A stretch of 64,000 nt of DNA from Microvenator marinus (GTDB lineage: Bacteria > Myxococcota_A > Bradymonadia > Bradymonadales > Bradymonadaceae), in the NCBI RefSeq assembly GCF_007993755.1, contig NZ_CP042467.1:558001-622000 (forward strand). The letters are read 5' to 3'. Under the pieces are notes generated by a model, which was given only the letters and a program-made list of their open reading frames with translations, was not told where the DNA came from and did no database searches. Numbering within the stretch: position 1 is the first letter of the stretch; each line of letters begins with the position of its first letter. Positions 40,825 to 54,822 of this stretch are shown piece by piece. Made by a program: the position numbers and the translations under genes.

Positions 40825-41718
40825 CTAGTAGTCTGAAAGACTGAAATCGTGGGTGATTCGAATCTTGTATTCGATGGGTTCGCAGTTCTGGGTAGCAGGC
40901 TTGAAGGTCCACTGTTTGAAAGCTTCGACGGCAGCTTCGTCCAAGCCGAAGCCGGCCCCACTTATAACTTCGACCTTACCTACCTTCCCGTTGGTCTTCA
41001 CGGTTAGCAAAGCCACCACCGCTCCCTCGATCTGGCGCCGTTTGGCTTCGGGTGGATACTTGCCCTTCACTCGGCGTCCGATCACGGGTTTGGTCGCCGG
41101 GCAGGTCCGTTTTGGAGCTGGCTTCGAATAGCCTTCACCGGTGCCGCCCTCCGCGGTCTTAATTTTTCCGAATCTCGATGGGTCGACAACCTTTGTGGTC
41201 ATTTTGCCGGTCTTGATTCCAGTTCCAGCTTTGATTTCAAAAGCCCCCGCTTCTCCCATCGAATCCATTGTCAGACCTTCTAGGTTCACAGGATCCATAG
41301 CTTCGGTAGCTTCCGGTGGCGCATCCTCCGGTGGCGGGTCGGCGTCTGTTTCTGGCTCCACTTCGGGCTCAGGCTCAGGCTCGGGTTCCGGCTCAGGCTC
41401 GGGTTCTGGCTCGGGCTCAGGTTCCACTTCGGGTTCCGGCTCAGGCTCAGGCTCAGGCTCGGGTTCCGGCTCAGGCTCGGGTTCTGGCTCAGGCTCCGGT
41501 TCCTCGTAGACCTCCATCTCGATGAACTCCGTCTCCTCTTTCTCCGGCTCGATCTTTGTGTTGAGAAGCGGTGCCACGAAAACGAGAATACCACCCGCCA
41601 CAACGTGCACGACAAAGGCCGCAATGATGCCGATTGCAGCTGTACCCAGGCGTTTGCCAGTACTCTGCCTTTCGTCGATCAAAGGGTCTTTAACTTCGAT
41701 GGGTCGTTGAGATGACAC
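40825..41718 (-). CDS. TonB energy-transducer protein with Glu-Pro repeats
   Basis: 297 residues. An N-terminal membrane anchor (about 27-52) is followed by a long periplasmic EP-dipeptide rod (about 70-128) and a C-terminal TonB domain ([23 protein letters not shown] then [27 protein letters not shown]). It is the third gene of exbB-exbD-tonB; its GTG start shares one G with the TAG stop of exbD. It should transmit proton-motive energy to outer-membrane receptors. A second TonB-like protein is encoded at 3.2-4.2 kb. Confidence 0.92.
41345..41510 (-). repeat. Tandem Glu-Pro codon repeat in tonB
   Basis: A run of near-identical 6-12 bp units (GGCTCAGGCTCGGG-type on the plus strand) encodes about 26 Glu-Pro pairs, broken by EVEPE units. 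Long EP rods are usual in TonB proteins, spanning the periplasm. Slipped-strand length changes by multiples of 6 bp are possible without frameshift. Confidence 0.85.
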
Positions 41719-46127: not shown

Positions 46128-46153
46128 AAAAACTCCATGGTGATTAAGAAAAC

Positions 46154-46248
46154 GAGAAAAGCCCTGAACTAGAAACATGTTCTAATTCAGGGCTTTATCG
46201 AGTGGAGCTGACGGGGCTCGAACCCGTGACCTCGTGACTGCCAGTCAA
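46154..46248. repeat. Left att repeat with displaced tRNA-Ala 3' fragment and terminator copy
   Basis: Direct copy of 54701-54795 with a single mismatch (46194 T versus 54741 C). Bases 46203-46248 correspond to nucleotides 28-73 of the minus-strand tRNA-Ala; 46154-46193 hold a duplicate of its hairpin terminator. The 5' part of the tRNA is missing, so this fragment cannot be functional. It marks the distal end of the integrated element, next to the integrase gene. Confidence 0.95.
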
Positions 46249-46352
46249 CGGGTATGGTCGGAATGCGCGAATAACCGACATCAAAGGGGCTTGCAATAAT
46301 GCGGGTTTAGTATCAGTCTAGATTCAATCGGCGTTAAAGATATTGACGTCGC

Positions 46353-46374
46353 TTTGCTACTAGATTGCTACTAT
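46353..46374 (+). repeat. Candidate integrase arm site (left copy)
   Basis: A 22-bp sequence containing two TTGCTACT-type units, matched at 19 of 22 positions by 54657-54678 near the other end in the same orientation. Paired repeats just inside both att cores are typical of arm-type binding sites for tyrosine integrases. It overlaps the first bases of the integrase gene, so it could also let Int repress itself. Inference. Confidence 0.5.
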
Positions 46375-47524
46375 GCCCAGATTGACCAAAACCTTGATTG
46401 AACGTGCGACATGCGACCCAGGTAAGCAGATCACGCTTTACATGGACTCACAGGTAAAAGCGTTTGGGGTGCGAGTCTACGCTTCAGGTTCGAAGTACTA
46501 CTTCATCAACCCGATGATTAACGGGCAACGCACGTACCGCCAGAAGCCAATCTACGAGTTCGCTACGGTCGAAGACGCGAGAGCTTGGGCGATCAATCTG
46601 CGGAGACGTCTTCGAGCTGGCGAGACCGCCGAAGAGATTGAGGCAGCTCCAAAACAGCAACTTCAAGCTCCAGAATTCTTCGAACTCTTCCTGAAGGAAT
46701 ACTCGGAGGTCATGAAGAAGTCTGCCGCAACCGATCGGCGCTATGTCAACAACTTCCTGATACCAGCATTCAAGCGCAAAAGGATTGAGAAGATCTCCGC
46801 AAACGACCTCCAAGAGCTCAGAAACAAGATCACTGCCGATGGCGGCCGAAAACATACCGCTAATCGAGTCAGGTCTCTCTTTCGCAAAGCATGGAAATGG
46901 GGACAGCAATATGGGCACATTGACGCTTCCCTTCCCGACCCGGCAAGGCACGTCGAGAAGTTCCGGGAGAAACCGCGTGACCGCTATCTGAAGGATGAAG
47001 AGATTGTAAGACTCTTTGATGAGCTCGAGCGTGAAGAGCCAGAACTCTATCTGGCTGTGGAGCTCGCTCTTGCGACTGGATGCAGAAAGATGGAGACCTT
47101 GGCGATGCAATGGAGTTGGATTGACTTCGGAGCCAAGACCACGATTCGAATTCCTGAAACCAAGAACGGAACGTCGCACCTGGTACCGCTCAACGAACGC
47201 GTGGCGGGCATGCTCCGAGACCGCAAGTCAGTATCCATTTCCCCTTACGTGTTTCCGGGAAGATTCGAAGACGACCACCGGAAGGACTTCAAGACCGCAT
47301 GGAAGCGAGTTCGTGATGCGGCAAAGATTCCCGATGTCCGTTGGCATGATCTCAGAAGAACCGTTGGGACTCGGATGGCTCAGAACGGAACCGACCTCTA
47401 TACCATCGCCAAGACCTTGAATCATAAGTCCCTCGCATCGACCCAGACCTATGCGAAGTTATCGACTGAAACGACTCGGGCAGCTCTGGAGAGCATCGAC
47501 CGCAAGAGAGGCAACGATGAATGA
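46373..47524 (+). CDS. int: Tyrosine-type site-specific integrase
   Basis: 383 residues. The N-terminal domain (about 5-75, DSQVKAFGVRVYASGSKYYF) resembles the arm-binding DUF4102-like domain of P4/phage integrases, then a core-binding SAM-like domain (about 95-190) and the catalytic domain. The catalytic set is R238 (ATGCRKME), H325 and R328 (WHDLRR), H351 (NHKS) and nucleophile Y360 (TQTYAKLS). It drives insertion and excision at the tRNA-Ala site. It is 124 bp inside the left repeat and overlaps the next gene by 8 bp. Confidence 0.97.
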   Translation: MPRLTKTLIERATCDPGKQITLYMDSQVKAFGVRVYASGSKYYFINPMINGQRTYRQKPIYEFATVEDARAWAINLRRRLRAGETAEEIEAAPKQQLQAPEFFELFLKEYSEVMKKSAATDRRYVNNFLIPAFKRKRIEKISANDLQELRNKITADGGRKHTANRVRSLFRKAWKWGQQYGHIDASLPDPARHVEKFREKPRDRYLKDEEIVRLFDELEREEPELYLAVELALATGCRKMETLAMQWSWIDFGAKTTIRIPETKNGTSHLVPLNERVAGMLRDRKSVSISPYVFPGRFEDDHRKDFKTAWKRVRDAAKIPDVRWHDLRRTVGTRMAQNGTDLYTIAKTLNHKSLASTQTYAKLSTETTRAALESIDRKRGNDE

Positions 47525-48164
47525 AGTTGCTCTCAGAAAGGCCTACGACTTCTTCATCTACAGTTACCAGCTGGAGGTTGAAAGGAGTCTTGCTATTGAC
47601 TTCAGGCGTGAGGAGGTCGAAGCCCTAGAACGCATCTGCAAAGCGGTGGATGACATTGAGACCAAGACTAGGAAGCGGGATCGGGACCGGGCATGGAATC
47701 GTTTCTACAAGGCGCTTGATGCCGACTATCCCCAGATTAAACGCTTCAAGCATGACTTCGAAACGGTCAAGAAATGGAACCCGGAAGCTCAGTGTTTTGA
47801 AGAAGTGCCCAAGTTGGCAAACGCGCTTAGCACACGAGCCTGTATTCGTGCTCATTTGAGTCTTGGGAGTGTCACGATCGGCAGACCGGAAGAGCCATTG
47901 CGGGAGACTGTGGCCTACCTTGTGGCAGCAGAATTGCGCTGGGGTGAGCCTGGAACACTTGCGGAGATCTACCAGCGAATTCAAGCGCGCCTTCCAGAAC
48001 ATGTCACCACAGAGACGATCAGAAAGGCGCATGAAAAGTTCATGGAGAACATTCTAACCGATGACTTCGAGCGGGAAGACTACCCGGACCTCGAAGACAT
48101 GCTCGCACCGCCCTGGGAGAAGATGGGCATGACACATGAGGATTGGATGAGACGCATGCACTGA
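47517..48164 (+). CDS. Unknown protein coupled to integrase
   Basis: 215 residues, MNEVALRKAYDFFIYSYQLEVERSLAIDF at the start, mostly helical and charged, with a C-terminal acidic tail. Overlap of 8 bp with int (ATG inside its last codons) argues for translational coupling and for this start rather than an upstream one at 47451. No known family recognised. Partnership with the recombinase, for instance as a directionality or accessory factor, is only suggested by position. Confidence 0.72.
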   Translation: MNEVALRKAYDFFIYSYQLEVERSLAIDFRREEVEALERICKAVDDIETKTRKRDRDRAWNRFYKALDADYPQIKRFKHDFETVKKWNPEAQCFEEVPKLANALSTRACIRAHLSLGSVTIGRPEEPLRETVAYLVAAELRWGEPGTLAEIYQRIQARLPEHVTTETIRKAHEKFMENILTDDFEREDYPDLEDMLAPPWEKMGMTHEDWMRRMH

Positions 48165-48304
48165 CAAGAAAAGCGAAGAGCCCGACGCGCCAACGTCGAG
48201 CCCTTCAATGTGTTTAACTGGGTTGAGACCCAGCGCCCCACAGGAACCCGCATTATAGCGGTACGGGCGTCAAGATCTCAACCCCAAAACCCAAAGGGGT
48301 TATT
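48165..48304 (+). other. Structured gap after the integrase pair
   Basis: 140 bp holding short inverted repeats: TGGGTTGAGACCCAG-like hairpin near 48220, CCCGCATTATAGCGGTACGGG near 48250, and CCCC...GGGG just before the next ATG. None has a clear U-run, so a classical terminator is not evident. These may limit transcription into the next genes. Confidence 0.35.
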
Positions 48305-48490
48305 ATGAGGAAGATCGAAGATGTTCTGAACGATGATGCGCTTCCAATTCTATCTGGGGACATTGCAGACGGGCAAACGTTGCAACGTTTGATTGAGCAG
48401 AGCCTCAAGATGGATGCCCAAGAGTTCCACACCTGGGTGCAAGGTTACGCCGAAGTCTACTGCCAAGATTCAACCATAAAGACGCTCTAA
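48305..48490 (+). CDS. Small unknown protein (61 aa)
   Basis: 61 residues, acidic, predicted helical, beginning MRKIEDVLNDDALPIL. AAGGGG stands 6 bases before ATG, a good ribosome site, which supports it as a real gene. No motif recognised. It precedes the excisionase-like gene by 112 bp. Confidence 0.55.
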   Translation: MRKIEDVLNDDALPILSGDIADGQTLQRLIEQSLKMDAQEFHTWVQGYAEVYCQDSTIKTL

Positions 48491-48602: not shown

Positions 48603-48812
48603 ATGAACATGAAGTTAGTTGACACCAATACCCTTTCGAAGATGTTCCCGGCGATCAAGGCGTCGTCCTGGGTGAGCATGCGCCACCGTGGAGTTGGGCC
48701 GCGATTCGTCAAGCTCGGGAACCGAGTCTTTTACGATATCGATGATGTTGAGGCGTGGTTCGAATCAAACAAGGTCTCTTCCACCGCCGAAGCAGCGAAC
48801 AGAAATCACTAA
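48603..48812 (+). CDS. AlpA/excisionase-like DNA-binding protein
   Basis: 69 residues with a winged-helix/HTH_17 pattern: LVDTNTLSKMFPAIK then SMRHRGVGPRFVKLGNRVFY and DIDDVEAWFESNK. This R-G-x-GP-x-x-x-K-x-G-x-x-V-x-Y-x-x-x-D-x-x-x-W signature is common to AlpA and Xis proteins of prophages and satellites, which bend DNA for excision or activate satellite genes. AAAGGAG precedes ATG by 7 bases. Confidence 0.85.
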   Translation: MNMKLVDTNTLSKMFPAIKASSWVSMRHRGVGPRFVKLGNRVFYDIDDVEAWFESNKVSSTAEAANRNH

Positions 48813-48924: not shown

Positions 48925-50205
48925 ATGGACTTATCAGAGAAAGCTCGAAGGGAATACGGGGAGATGGAAGACTATCTTCGCTCCAAAGGCGTCGAGCTCA
49001 ATCGTAGTGGGATGGCATGTTGCCCGTTCCATGATGACAAGAACCCTTCATTCAGCGTCAAGGATGACCGCTGGACATGCTGGGCCGGATGCGGCAACGG
49101 GGGCTTGATTGACCTTGTGGCGAAGTTCGAAGGTCGGGAGCCGCGCGAGATATGCTCGGAGCTTGGGAAGAAGTACCCTTCGGAGGGGCTACGAAAGAAC
49201 TCTAAGAAGTCTGGGTCCAAGCAAACGCCGAAGCCAAAGGCCCAGGCTCCAACACCGAAGCCGAAACCGAAGCCTGAAAAGCTAGACCACCCACACCAGA
49301 ACCACCCGCACTTTCGAGGCTGGCGCTCAACGCTTCTGTCACGAATGCTCGATTATGGGATTCCACTAACCGAGCCCTATCGTGGAATTCCCGCAGAATT
49401 GCTCCAAGGGCTTGTCTATGGTTTCACGGCCGAGGATTGGGACAAGGCACGCCGCGCAGTGATTCGAGATCTTAGACGCTACGTTCCGTTTGATATCCAG
49501 CCCCTGATTCCAGAAGCATATCGAATTGCAAACAAGGTTGGGGATACATGGCATCGCTACCAAAGGTTTCTCGTGTTTCCCTATTGGGACACTCAGTATC
49601 ACTTCCACCCGCTAACCGGGAATGAGGAGCCGTGGGAATGCTTCTATGACCCTTCTGACGAAGAAGAGAAGCGGCAATACGAGTACAGAACGCCCTATGA
49701 CCCAGAATCCTCGTGGCGAGTGCGCGGGCTTGTAGAGCTCCGATTCAGGAACGCCACCGAAGGCGCTCCCAAACAGGCACGCTACACACAGACCAAGCTG
49801 TTTGGGGCAACACGGATTCCCTATCTTTCGAACCCCGTACTACTCCGACTTGCGACCCAAGACGTGGAAGCTCACAAGCACACGCTCTATGTGTGTGAAG
49901 GGGAATGGGACACGTTGAGCGTATGGGCAAGGGGCAGGGTCGCAATCGGCATTCCGGGTACATCTTCGTGGAATGATGGGTGGTGTAAGCACTGGAATCG
50001 GTGCGGAAACGTGGTGGTCCTGAGTGACCCAGACAATGCCGGGGACGAACTCTGGCAACGAATTGTAGCCGCGTGCGTGAAGACTCATGGCCCACGTTGG
50101 ACACGCAAAAGACTAAGGCGCCAGTTCAACGAAGCTGGCGACATCAACGAATTACTACAAAGGTACCAAGACGGCACCGACTCAGAGGGAAACACTCATG
50201 GATGA
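48925..50205 (+). CDS. DNA primase with CHC2 zinc finger and TOPRIM-like domain
   Basis: 426 residues. A CHC2 zinc finger is formed by C33, H36, C52 and C56 (MACCPFHDDKNPSFS ... WTCWAGCG). A Lys/Pro-rich linker (about 92-120) follows. A TOPRIM-like domain has the catalytic Glu in YVCEGEWDT (near 324) and DPD in LSDPDNAGDE (near 368). It would make primers for the element's own replication. AAGGAG 7 bases before ATG 48925 fixes the start; an upstream frame to 48688 has no similarity. It overlaps the ATPase gene by 8 bp. Confidence 0.93.
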   Translation: MDLSEKARREYGEMEDYLRSKGVELNRSGMACCPFHDDKNPSFSVKDDRWTCWAGCGNGGLIDLVAKFEGREPREICSELGKKYPSEGLRKNSKKSGSKQTPKPKAQAPTPKPKPKPEKLDHPHQNHPHFRGWRSTLLSRMLDYGIPLTEPYRGIPAELLQGLVYGFTAEDWDKARRAVIRDLRRYVPFDIQPLIPEAYRIANKVGDTWHRYQRFLVFPYWDTQYHFHPLTGNEEPWECFYDPSDEEEKRQYEYRTPYDPESSWRVRGLVELRFRNATEGAPKQARYTQTKLFGATRIPYLSNPVLLRLATQDVEAHKHTLYVCEGEWDTLSVWARGRVAIGIPGTSSWNDGWCKHWNRCGNVVVLSDPDNAGDELWQRIVAACVKTHGPRWTRKRLRRQFNEAGDINELLQRYQDGTDSEGNTHG

Positions 50206-51826
50206 TATTTTCAAAGGCATGAATACCCAGCTACCTAATGTTGACGATGTCGAAAAGCCGCCCCTTAAACCCAACAATAGGCCGCTGAAGAAGAGACCTA
50301 GGGTGAGGTTGGATGAGGACAGAGGTGATGCATTAGATAAGGCCAACGTGATACTTAAAGCTCTTCGGGAGCATGCCGACTATCGCTTTTATGTGAATGA
50401 AGACACCAACGGAATTGTGCAAATCAATGGCCGCGATGTAATCGCAATGGACCATGTGACAAAGTTCCAACACCGTATTCAGCAAGAGATGGTCCTTTAC
50501 TATCCTGTGGAGGAGGGAGAGAAATTGTGGAACGTGCCACCTAAGGATGCCGTGCAATCGCTCATCGAGCGTGAGGAGTGGCCATATCTACGCAAACTGA
50601 AACGAATCGCGAGATTTCCGATTTTTGTCGGGGAAGATTTCGAGCTCTTTGACCGCGAGGGTTACGACCCTGCCTCAGGGACTTACGGCATGGAAGGAAT
50701 GTTGAAAGTAAAGGACATGACTCTTGAAGAAGCGAAAGACATCCTCATTAACAAGCTCCTGCGAGATGATGGCGGGCCAGGACTTGACCCAGAAGATCCT
50801 CCAGGATTTCCATTTGTGGACGAGTCTGACTTGGCAAATGCAATCGGTATGGCATTGACACCACTAGTTCTTCCAGCCATCCGAGACCGGAACGACAATG
50901 CTTGTGTTCCAGTATTTATGATAGATGCATCCACTCAAGGCACAGGTAAAACGATCCTAGCAGAGTCCTTGTTGACACCGGAGCTCCGCAACGTGTCGAT
51001 TCCAAAAACGGAGGAGGAGTTCCAAAAGGCGCTGGGGTCAATCATTGGTACGAAACGTGATGTGCTCTTCTTCGACAACATCTTAGACGGAGCGACATTT
51101 GGCTATCCAACACTCGCGGCAATGACAACCCAAGCCGGACGCGCTTCAATGCGCAGGCTCGGAGTAAATCAAATGATAGAGGGTCGTTTTTCAGGAATCA
51201 TAATCGCCACTGGCAACAACCTACAAGTTGATGCCGATGCGCGTAGACGCACGATGTTGATTCAACTTCATTCCTCTCTGGAGAATCCCGACCAGCGCGT
51301 TTGTAAGACCGATCCAAAGTCCTATGCTAAAAAGAACCGGTCCCTCATTCACTCTGCCTTGATAGAGCTTGTTAAGAACTGGAAGGTCAAAGGCTGTCCT
51401 AGCGGTTCGATTGTCATGGGTTCGTTTGGCGAGTTCACAAGAGTTGTTGGCGGAATACTTGATGCGGCTGGTATTCCCGGATTCGCTGGCAACACTGATC
51501 GATTGAGGGAGCGGGTTGACGACGGAGGTTGGACAGACTTCACTGCCGCGATCGGAGCAGAGTTCGAAGCGAAGCGGCTCGATCTGGAGGGCGTGACAGC
51601 TCGAAACCTTGTGAAGTATTGTGAGGAAAATGATATCGACCTTCCCGCGCGACTCGCAAGTGGCAACGGCGCCGATAGGTCTTTCGGGCGGCAGGTTAAA
51701 CAATACATCAGGGGGCCGAAAAACATGGGCGGATGGATGTGGGAGTTCATAGGTTCCCCAGCATCTAAACGGTCAGCATATCGCGTCCGTCGTTATCAGG
51801 CTCCGTTGGCTCGTGAAGAAGATTGA
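50198..51826 (+). CDS. AAA-type ATPase, probable replicative helicase
   Basis: 542 residues. Walker A-like STQGTGKT (near 248-252), Walker B VLFFDN (near 290) and a later IIATGNNLQVDADARRR (about 335-351) supply a sensor Asn and arginine fingers, the arrangement of hexameric AAA/superfamily-III helicases in phages and plasmids. The first 230 residues have no recognised domain. The 8-bp overlap with the primase gene and position next to the iteron array suggest the pair acts as initiator, primase and helicase. Exact family not identified. Confidence 0.82.
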   Translation: MDDIFKGMNTQLPNVDDVEKPPLKPNNRPLKKRPRVRLDEDRGDALDKANVILKALREHADYRFYVNEDTNGIVQINGRDVIAMDHVTKFQHRIQQEMVLYYPVEEGEKLWNVPPKDAVQSLIEREEWPYLRKLKRIARFPIFVGEDFELFDREGYDPASGTYGMEGMLKVKDMTLEEAKDILINKLLRDDGGPGLDPEDPPGFPFVDESDLANAIGMALTPLVLPAIRDRNDNACVPVFMIDASTQGTGKTILAESLLTPELRNVSIPKTEEEFQKALGSIIGTKRDVLFFDNILDGATFGYPTLAAMTTQAGRASMRRLGVNQMIEGRFSGIIIATGNNLQVDADARRRTMLIQLHSSLENPDQRVCKTDPKSYAKKNRSLIHSALIELVKNWKVKGCPSGSIVMGSFGEFTRVVGGILDAAGIPGFAGNTDRLRERVDDGGWTDFTAAIGAEFEAKRLDLEGVTARNLVKYCEENDIDLPARLASGNGADRSFGRQVKQYIRGPKNMGGWMWEFIGSPASKRSAYRVRRYQAPLAREED

Positions 51827-51837
51827 AATTCCCGCGG

Positions 51838-52080
51838 GTAACCAAAGAAAAAACCCGCAAAACCCGCATAACAACCTCAAACCCTTAGTATTGCTAGGGA
51901 GCAGAGATGCGGGTTTTATTTTCAAGACCCGCAATGTCCCGCAATGTCCCGCATGAGTTGTAGATGTTTGCGGGTTATGCGGGGACGCATGCGGGTTAGC
52001 GGCTCAAAACCCGCAGCATGTTTCCCTCTTTTTTCAATGACTTGTGAACATCCTGCGGGTTATGCGGGTTATTTTGCGGA
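51838..52080. repeat. Iteron array, putative replication origin of the element
   Basis: About twelve copies of the heptamer TGCGGGT (or one-base variants) on both strands: as ACCCGCA/TCCCGCA at 51853, 51862, 51927, 51937, 51947, 52009 and as TGCGGGT/TGCGGGG at 51908, 51969, 51978, 51990, 52054, 52063, with a partial at 52075. Several lie 9-10 bp apart, one helical turn. A T-rich stretch (52021-52045) lies between clusters and could unwind. It directly follows primase and ATPase genes, as in P4-type origins. The function is inference. Confidence 0.7.
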
Positions 52081-52224
52081 TCTTCTACACACGCGCACGC
52101 ACACCCGGGGTCTCATTCATTAGCAAACGAAAGGGGCTACACGGCAGGGCTGTTCGAAAGATGCACGTCATTTTCATTTTTGATACAATCTGAGCCGTAG
52201 ACTTGAAACACCGAGGCTCTCAGA
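52081..52224. other. Non-coding spacer before the TerS-like gene
   Basis: Contains a GT/CA-alternating stretch (acacgcgcacgcacac-like, near 52090) and a TACAAT -10-like hexamer near 52184, which may serve the next gene; no matching -35 is clear. No ORF or repeat. Confidence 0.4.
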
Positions 52225-52671
52225 ATGGGCAAGCAACGCACGAAGAAGAAACACGCATTCCTCACACACTACAAGCAACATGGAAGTGTGACACGAGCCG
52301 CAGAAGCGGCAGGTTATGCGCAACCCGGACCTTGTTACAGGTATCTCAAGACCGGAGATGATGGCGAGTATCTGGACCCTATTGTCCGGAGCATGCTCGG
52401 AACACCCGAGCCTGAAGAGCCGGAGCAAGTGACACTACCGTCCAACGTACTGAAGCTGGTCCCGAAAGCAGACCGCGAAGTCACGCCAACGATTGAAGGT
52501 GTGCAAGCGTTGCTCTGGAGTATCGCCAACGACCAACTCACGGCAGCGGGGCCGCGTGTCCAGGCAGCGAGCATTCTACTCAAAGACCTAAGAGAGACGG
52601 TGGAAGAAGAGTACGAATCACCAGAAGATATTGTTGAAGACATTCGTCGTGCTCTTTACGTCCCGCGCTAA
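52225..52671 (+). CDS. Terminase-small-subunit-like DNA-binding protein
   Basis: 148 residues. The N-terminus KKKHAFLTHYKQHGSVTRAAEAAGY with GPCYRYLKTGDD is a helix-turn-helix of the kind found in phage terminase small subunits, where it recognises the packaging site. The C-terminal part is helical and acidic (QAASILLKDLRETVEEEYESPEDI). GAGG lies 8 bases before ATG. No terminase large subunit is in the element, as in PICI satellites that redirect a helper phage's terminase. It could instead be another HTH protein. Confidence 0.6.
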   Translation: MGKQRTKKKHAFLTHYKQHGSVTRAAEAAGYAQPGPCYRYLKTGDDGEYLDPIVRSMLGTPEPEEPEQVTLPSNVLKLVPKADREVTPTIEGVQALLWSIANDQLTAAGPRVQAASILLKDLRETVEEEYESPEDIVEDIRRALYVPR

Positions 52672-52752: not shown

Positions 52753-53148
52753 ATGACAAGGCAGAAATACATCCAACTTGAGTTCTCAGAGACCGACCGC
52801 GCATTTCTTCGAAGGTTGCGCATCGCAATGGGTGTGAAAACCAACTCGAAGGCAATCCGCGCGCTAATCAAAGAAGCGGACGCCCAAGAGCGCATTGAGC
52901 CCGTCACCATTCCGACCATTGTCACCGTTAGCCTTCCAGCGCGCACCGCCGAAATTCATCGCACTACATGCGTTCTGAGCGACCATGACATGGTTCGACT
53001 TCGAACTCTTCAAGTAAAACTCGGATGCACAACCCGGATGGCGACCATTCGCCAACTTATCTGGGACGCATTCCTATACCTAATCGAGGGACCCAGAGAT
53101 GAGCAAAGCAACCAAAGCTCAAGAGAGACAACGCGACGCGTTGCTTAG
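52753..53148 (+). CDS. Tandem ribbon-helix-helix-like DNA-binding protein
   Basis: 131 residues with an internal duplication. Residues 5-45 (YIQLEFSETDRAFLRRLRIAMGVKTNSKAIRALIKEA) and about 74-115 (CVLSDHDMVRLRTLQVKLGCTTRMATIRQLIWDAF) each show a beta strand and two helices like RHH (Arc/MetJ-type) units. A single chain would thus supply both halves of a DNA-binding dimer. No clear ribosome site is seen. Candidate repressor of the downstream block. Confidence 0.6.
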   Translation: MTRQKYIQLEFSETDRAFLRRLRIAMGVKTNSKAIRALIKEADAQERIEPVTIPTIVTVSLPARTAEIHRTTCVLSDHDMVRLRTLQVKLGCTTRMATIRQLIWDAFLYLIEGPRDEQSNQSSRETTRRVA

Positions 53149-54678: not shown

Positions 54679-54700
54679 TCAGACCGCTTGCGCCAAGAAA

Positions 54701-54740
54701 GAGAAAAGCCCTGAACTAGAAACATGTTCTAATTCAGGGC
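54701..54740 (-). terminator. Rho-independent terminator of tRNA-Ala
   Basis: On the minus strand GCCCTGAA pairs with TTCAGGGC, with inner TAGAA/TTCTA pairs around a short loop, followed by TTTTCTCTTT. It lies 9 bases after the tRNA 3' end. The same structure is duplicated at 46154-46193. Confidence 0.8.
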
Positions 54741-54795
54741 CTTATCGAGTGGAGCTGACGGGGCTCGAACCCGTGACCTCGTGACTGCCAGTCAA
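54701..54795. repeat. Right att repeat within the intact tRNA-Ala gene
   Basis: Second copy of the 95-bp direct repeat. It comprises nucleotides 28-73 of the tRNA (54750-54795) and 49 bp downstream of it with the terminator. Recombination between the copies would leave one full tRNA and an 8547-bp circle. Confidence 0.95.
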
Positions 54796-54822
54796 GCGCT
54801 CTCCCAGCTGAGCTACAGCCCC
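54750..54822 (-). tRNA. tRNA-Ala (GGC anticodon)
   Basis: The cloverleaf folds on the minus strand: acceptor GGGGCTG/CAGCTCC with the G3:U70 pair that identifies alanine tRNAs, D-arm GCTC AGCTGGGA GAGC, anticodon loop CTGGCAG with GGC, T-arm ACGGG TTCGAGC CCCGT and discriminator A. CCA is not encoded. One anticodon-stem pair, U28-C42, is mismatched. The 3' part comes from the att repeat, so the gene remains functional after integration. Confidence 0.96.

Follow-up and report, generated by a model that had tools for sequence, protein, structure and literature searches.

A mirror-symmetric array of TGCGGG sites as the probable replication origin of an integrative element in Microvenator marinus

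An array of twelve TGCGGG sites, six on each strand and spread over 215 bp, is most probably the replication origin of an 8.5-kb integrative element of Microvenator marinus and would be read by the element's own helicase-initiator; judging from the sequence and from analogy, we give this reading a probability of roughly 0.88. The array was studied in the window, by which we mean the whole 64,000-nucleotide stretch of DNA that was analysed, and coordinates refer to the window unless another locus is named. Very probably, the origin is of the same kind as that proven for a Streptomyces plasmid with a distantly related replication protein. The original prediction had already proposed an origin at this place. 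Three lines of evidence now support the proposal and make it the best reading of the array: a second array behind the paralogous helicase gene of the same genome, arrays behind distant homologues of the helicase, and experiments on the plasmid pWTY27, where the array is required and is bound by RepA (PMC3583192). The main feature of the array, which the original prediction did not contain, is the mirror pairing of its sites about position 51961.

The element is integrated in tRNA-Ala and is bracketed by 98-bp direct repeats (98% identical) at 46151 and 54698. Its repeats, integration site and principal genes are the following.

46151–46248: left attachment repeat, 98 bp
46373–47524, plus strand: tyrosine integrase
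47493–48164, plus strand: ORF without assigned function
48305–48490, plus strand: small ORF, first in the replication operon
48603–48812, plus strand: small HTH protein, AlpA/excisionase-like (weak match)
48925–50205, plus strand: DNA primase with CHC2 zinc finger and Toprim domains (start codon placed from the paralogue)
50198–51826, plus strand: initiator-helicase, pWTY27 RepA-like, with Walker A GTGKT and an ATGNN motif
52225–52671, plus strand: HTH protein, weakly small-terminase-like (phrog_4044, E 0.012)
52753–53148, plus strand: small ORF, possibly ribbon-helix-helix (weak match; PF17414, E 0.22)
54698–54795: right attachment repeat, overlapping tRNA-Ala
54749–54822, minus strand: tRNA-Ala (GGC), the integration site

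Further small genes lie beyond the HTH gene. No structural phage genes were recognised among the element proteins searched, and the PADLOC defence models gave no match to the cargo genes. Neither Pfam nor NCBIfam holds an adequate model for the helicase family: the score of the window helicase against DUF5906 (Pfam PF19263) is 17.9 bits, under the curated cut-off of 27.6, and DUF5906 matches one of 18 helicase homologues even at an E-value of 0.01. Close helicase relatives were not found by peptide-pattern searches of the genome and viral collections, and profile searches against solved structures yielded nothing meaningful. Structure predictions made from two sequences each were too poor to be informative, with a pLDDT of 32 for the helicase and 48 for the HTH protein.

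The region directly behind the helicase gene contains the following features.

51854–52068: putative origin array, 12 TGCGGG sites, 215 bp (from site search, mirror test and shuffles)
51854, 51863, 51928, 51938, 51948 and 52010, minus strand: sites reading CCCGCA
51908, 51969, 51978, 51990, 52054 and 52063, plus strand: sites reading TGCGGG
51859–51917, plus strand: hairpin from the left sites, then a T-rich tail (RNA fold z −4.3; paralogue z −8.6)
52021–52036, plus strand: T-rich stretch, a possible melting site, in the right 44-bp spacer (65–70% AT)
52075–52081, plus strand: degenerate thirteenth site TGCGGAT (intact in the paralogue at L009:10079)

Between 51838 and 52080 there are nine exact TGCGGGT heptamers, out of 21 in the whole window (8.3 expected). 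The "around a dozen" heptamers in both orientations of the original prediction become exactly 12 when TGCGGG is taken as the core, and nine of these extend to the full heptamer. From the rest of the window, 0.13 copies of TGCGGG are expected in 243 bp (Poisson P ~4e-20 for 12), and when the 243-bp region was shuffled the maximum for any hexamer was 5 copies. A comparable cluster had been said to be missing elsewhere in the window, and this is borne out, with the runner-up hexamer per 250 bp, GGCTCA, reaching nine copies near 41361. These nine copies (~41361–41610) lie outside the element, near exbB/exbD-like genes, and are possibly a coding repeat. In the genome, the heptamer TGCGGGT is scattered (882 copies in 5.85 Mb). 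Close same-strand TGCGGG pairs number 33 genome-wide, 13 of them inside the array and the paralogue array. The two-orientation cluster pattern, which requires two same-strand sites and then one in the opposite orientation, has 13 genome matches, all 13 in the array or its paralogue; the reversed control pattern has none.

The first site begins 28 bp past the stop codon of the helicase gene. From left to right, the sites are oriented − − + − − − + + + − + +, with start-to-start gaps of 9, 45, 20, 10, 10, 21, 9, 12, 20, 44 and 9 bp. All twelve sites have a mirror partner on the opposite strand within 1 bp, with the centre at 51961, and this full pairing was reached in none of 5000 shuffles of gaps and orientations; a separate mirror run on the array that allowed 2 bp came out at 1 of 2000 shuffles. 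Many of the sites had been described as 9–10 bp apart; both gaps are seen, but the runs contain a 12-bp step as well. Similarly, the T-rich stretch that the sites were said to surround is present, but it lies off-centre, within the 44-bp spacer on the right. Of the spacers, the one at 52020–52050 is the richest in AT, and the centre of the array is occupied by sites. A second motif shared within the 45-bp spacers was sought by aligning four half-arrays, and none was convincing.

A whole-genome search found one further copy of the helicase, in an 8.8-kb element (locus L009) that is integrated in tRNA-Pro between 78-bp att repeats of its own and encodes a different integrase. The gene order is the same in both elements (integrase, small genes, primase, helicase, array, HTH gene), and the identity between them is 66% for the helicase, 72% for the primase and 73% for the HTH gene. 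At the equivalent place the paralogue carries twelve TGCGGG sites, and the 5.85-Mb genome has no third array of this kind. Sites one to nine agree between the two arrays in order and orientation and, within 2 bp, in spacing; the intervening letters differ, being of the TGCGGGTTA/TTT type in the window and TGCGGGTCTTTT and TGCGGGAGTT in the paralogue. In an alignment of the two arrays, 63 of 72 positions are identical within the sites, as opposed to 73 of 155 in the intervening DNA. The site missing in each element survives in degenerate form, as TGCGGAT at 52075 in the window and as CTCCCGAT in the paralogue, the latter lying, when the sequence is read by eye, near the position of window site 52010. 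Mirror symmetry in the paralogue involves ten of its twelve sites (6 of 5000 shuffles). Within the primase gene of the paralogue, 27-bp tandem repeats (L009:7181–7315) give a proline-lysine-rich linker, which is shorter in the window element.

Is an array of this kind known to serve as an origin? The window helicase aligns in tblastn with RepA of pWTY27 at 28.7% identity (E 3e-27, residues 114–441), with motifs shared in the alignment. The minimal replicon of pWTY27 consists of repA, annotated at 621–2237, repB for a primase/polymerase, and 300 bp at 321–620 directly 3′ of repA; removal of the 300 bp abolishes replication, RepA gives shifts and footprints on this segment, and a linear plasmid is likewise sustained by the locus, which was taken as bidirectional replication (PMC3583192). 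We found ten GTGGGA sites in the pWTY27 array, with gaps of 11, 18, 38, 9, 74, 9, 38, 18 and 11, and all ten are mirror-symmetric (0 of 2000 shuffles). The published model is a long stem-loop, to which this mirrored-site reading is an alternative. Array necessity and RepA binding are experimental for pWTY27 only and would extend to the window element by analogy. Four other actinobacterial plasmids with helicase homologues, pCM32 and three Streptomyces plasmids, also have an array at the equivalent spot.

More distant relatives were collected by a phylum-wide search, in which 18 of 377 genomes had a helicase match. Array windows, defined as those with seven or more copies of one hexamer and with copies on both strands, were scanned in 21 non-redundant loci of helicase homologues, and 44 of the 45 such windows start between −900 and +600 bp from the helicase stop codon. 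The words vary among the arrays (CCCACG, GCGGGA, AGGTTC, AGTCTC, GGGAAC, CCCGCA, GAAGAC, CCTCAC, ATCTGC, AGCCCC, CGTTCA). Mirror symmetry recurs with unrelated words, at 10/10 sites in L065 (GAAGAC), 12/13 in L055 and 10/11 in L054, each in 0 of 2000 shuffles. It is not significant in several arrays (G021, L050, L074), about nine of the 21 phylum loci have no clear array, and none was found with the helicase homologues of the four lytic phages DSS3P8, MD18, phiAsp2 and phiCbK. In L054 and L060, a two-strand array lies within the helicase ORF itself, past the part that encodes the helicase domain. In genome G021, two similar distant-helicase loci (L010 and L012) share a CCCACG array, and each of them takes up a contig of ~3.4 kb.

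The mirrored pattern alone, searched against 2.9 million viral contigs, gave one match, ~18 bp past the stop codon of a helicase-like gene whose N-terminal domain is unrelated (BT4734-like_N). This CCCGCA/TGCGGG array (L027:3528–3672, IMGVR_UViG_3300042541_001213) belongs to a tailed-phage contig and lies between the helicase gene and HNH-TerS-TerL genes. Relatives of the primase in viral contigs gave local matches, and no arrays were reached through them.

The neighbourhood of this sole viral-contig array is one of the points that could be taken to indicate a packaging site (pac/cos-like), which the HTH protein (52225–52671) would bind while a helper phage packages the element; the HTH gene also follows the array in both elements and has its weak match to a small terminase. 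Among the homologous loci, however, the common neighbour is the helicase, and no HTH gene of this type was found behind their arrays; pWTY27 and other plasmids have the array beside other genes, and in pWTY27 it is required for replication (PMC3583192). We therefore consider a packaging site very unlikely. The same comparison bears on a partition (centromere-like) site, for which the product of 52753–53148, small and possibly ribbon-helix-helix, would be the binding protein. Some partition sites typically have short repeats arrayed on both strands, and the weak PF17414 match points in this direction, but no ParA-type ATPase was recognised among the element proteins searched and across loci the array tracks the helicase rather than the 52753–53148 gene, which leaves a partition site with hardly any probability.

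An origin read by the helicase is also to be seen together with single copies of the word elsewhere in the element, at the following two places.

48174–48281, minus strand: candidate antisense RNA gene, promoter TTGAGA-18-TATAAT (48281–48252), terminator stem 48207–48174
46293–46307, plus strand: single box GCAATAATGCGGGTT upstream of the integrase, a near-copy (14/15) of the box at 48245–48259

The best promoter-like match in both elements (11/12) runs leftward from 48281, and a TGCGGGT box follows directly after its −10 hexamer. Within ~80 nt there is a strong terminator-like stem, the sequence of which differs between the elements while the pairing is kept. The segment 48174–48281 looks like a gene for an RNA antisense to the leader of the replication operon; it occurs twice in the genome, once per element, with its counterpart at about L009:5910–6025 on the minus strand. 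The box upstream of the integrase is absent from the integrase leader of the paralogue. Rfam held no family fitting the array or the candidate antisense RNA, a Thr_leader match being far below threshold.

These boxes, at two promoter-like sites, and the strong left-site hairpin with its T's in both elements would also suit an array that takes no part in replication initiation and acts instead, at the junction of the replication operon with the operon after it, as an operator cluster or a bidirectional transcription terminator. Yet one stem suffices for a terminator, as against twelve mirror-paired sites at one-turn spacing, and the homologous array of pWTY27 is required for replication (PMC3583192). 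As the sole function of the array, regulation of this sort is highly improbable. A secondary terminator role stays compatible with an origin: given the left-site hairpin and its T-rich tail, the array may, besides its main role, terminate transcription of rep.

How might such an origin work? The helicase (50198–51826) would bind the sites, probably through its C-terminal region as placed from the alignment, and would assemble complexes on the two mirrored half-arrays. It would then open the DNA in or beside the 44–45-bp spacers, the primase (48925–50205) would lay primers, and the host polymerase would drive two forks in opposite directions. Through the single word copies at the antisense-RNA and integrase promoters, the same protein may couple replication to the control of its own operon.

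What looks new here is the breadth, namely an initiator family lacking a Pfam or NCBIfam model and one recurring origin layout in Streptomyces plasmids and in elements of the phylum. We tentatively propose, at somewhat less than even odds, that a single broad initiator family, unmodelled in both databases, includes the window helicase and pWTY27 RepA; that in this family the 3′ end of the helicase gene carries two mirrored half-arrays of lineage-variable words of 6–9 bp, which are a loading platform for two helicase rings; and that the same word at the antisense-RNA promoter of both elements is a feedback switch. Primase, helicase and 215 bp would make up a candidate minimal replicon for an element from a poorly studied bacterial group. 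Plasmids and integrated elements are tied together by one helicase family with a common origin layout, and the fast-changing words beside a conserved helicase offer a natural data set on how an initiator chooses its DNA word.

In layout, as far as the sequence alone tells, the window element resembles both pWTY27 and the phage-inducible chromosomal islands (PICI/SaPI). With pWTY27 it shares a homologous RepA helicase (~29% over ~330 residues), a primase gene upstream, and a two-strand array with full mirror symmetry immediately 3′ of the repA/helicase gene. The orientation order is a pair, an inverted single, a pair, the centre and the mirror image in pWTY27, and a pair, an inverted single, a triple, the centre and the mirror image in the window element. 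The centre is accordingly a 74-bp gap flanked by pairs in the former and a short one flanked by triples in the latter, and longer and shorter spacers come in the opposite order. The pWTY27 word is GTGGGAAC, unlike TGCGGG; RepB is a primase-polymerase whereas the window primase is of the CHC2-Toprim type; and pWTY27 is an autonomous plasmid whereas the window element is integrated. PICIs are described as having their origin just behind the 3′ end of rep, where an AT-rich region is framed by two sets of iterons, and in some of them a terS gene lies close by (PMC6092414). The window element likewise has chromosomal integration with an integrase and att repeats, primase and rep genes followed by the putative origin, two iteron sets, and a possible terS-like gene next to it (the phrog_4044 match); in contrast to the AT-rich centre of PICI origins, the centre of the window array is filled by sites. 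SaPI Rep showed no sequence match to the helicase in the solved-structure search. With satellite phage P4, known for its alpha protein and its ori and crr, the window element has in common that it is integrated and satellite-like, that it encodes primase and helicase functions, and that it carries short repeats. The P4 alpha protein fuses primase and helicase in one chain (PMC7145576), which in the window element are encoded by separate genes, and no P4-like family was detected in the element. The original prediction had likened the array to those of plasmids and of P4-type satellites; the plasmid likeness is upheld by pWTY27, whereas "P4-type" is less exact, because the primase and helicase genes are separate and the origin lies 3′ of the helicase as in PICIs and pWTY27. 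The closest model for the array is that of pWTY27 and the PICIs rather than P4.
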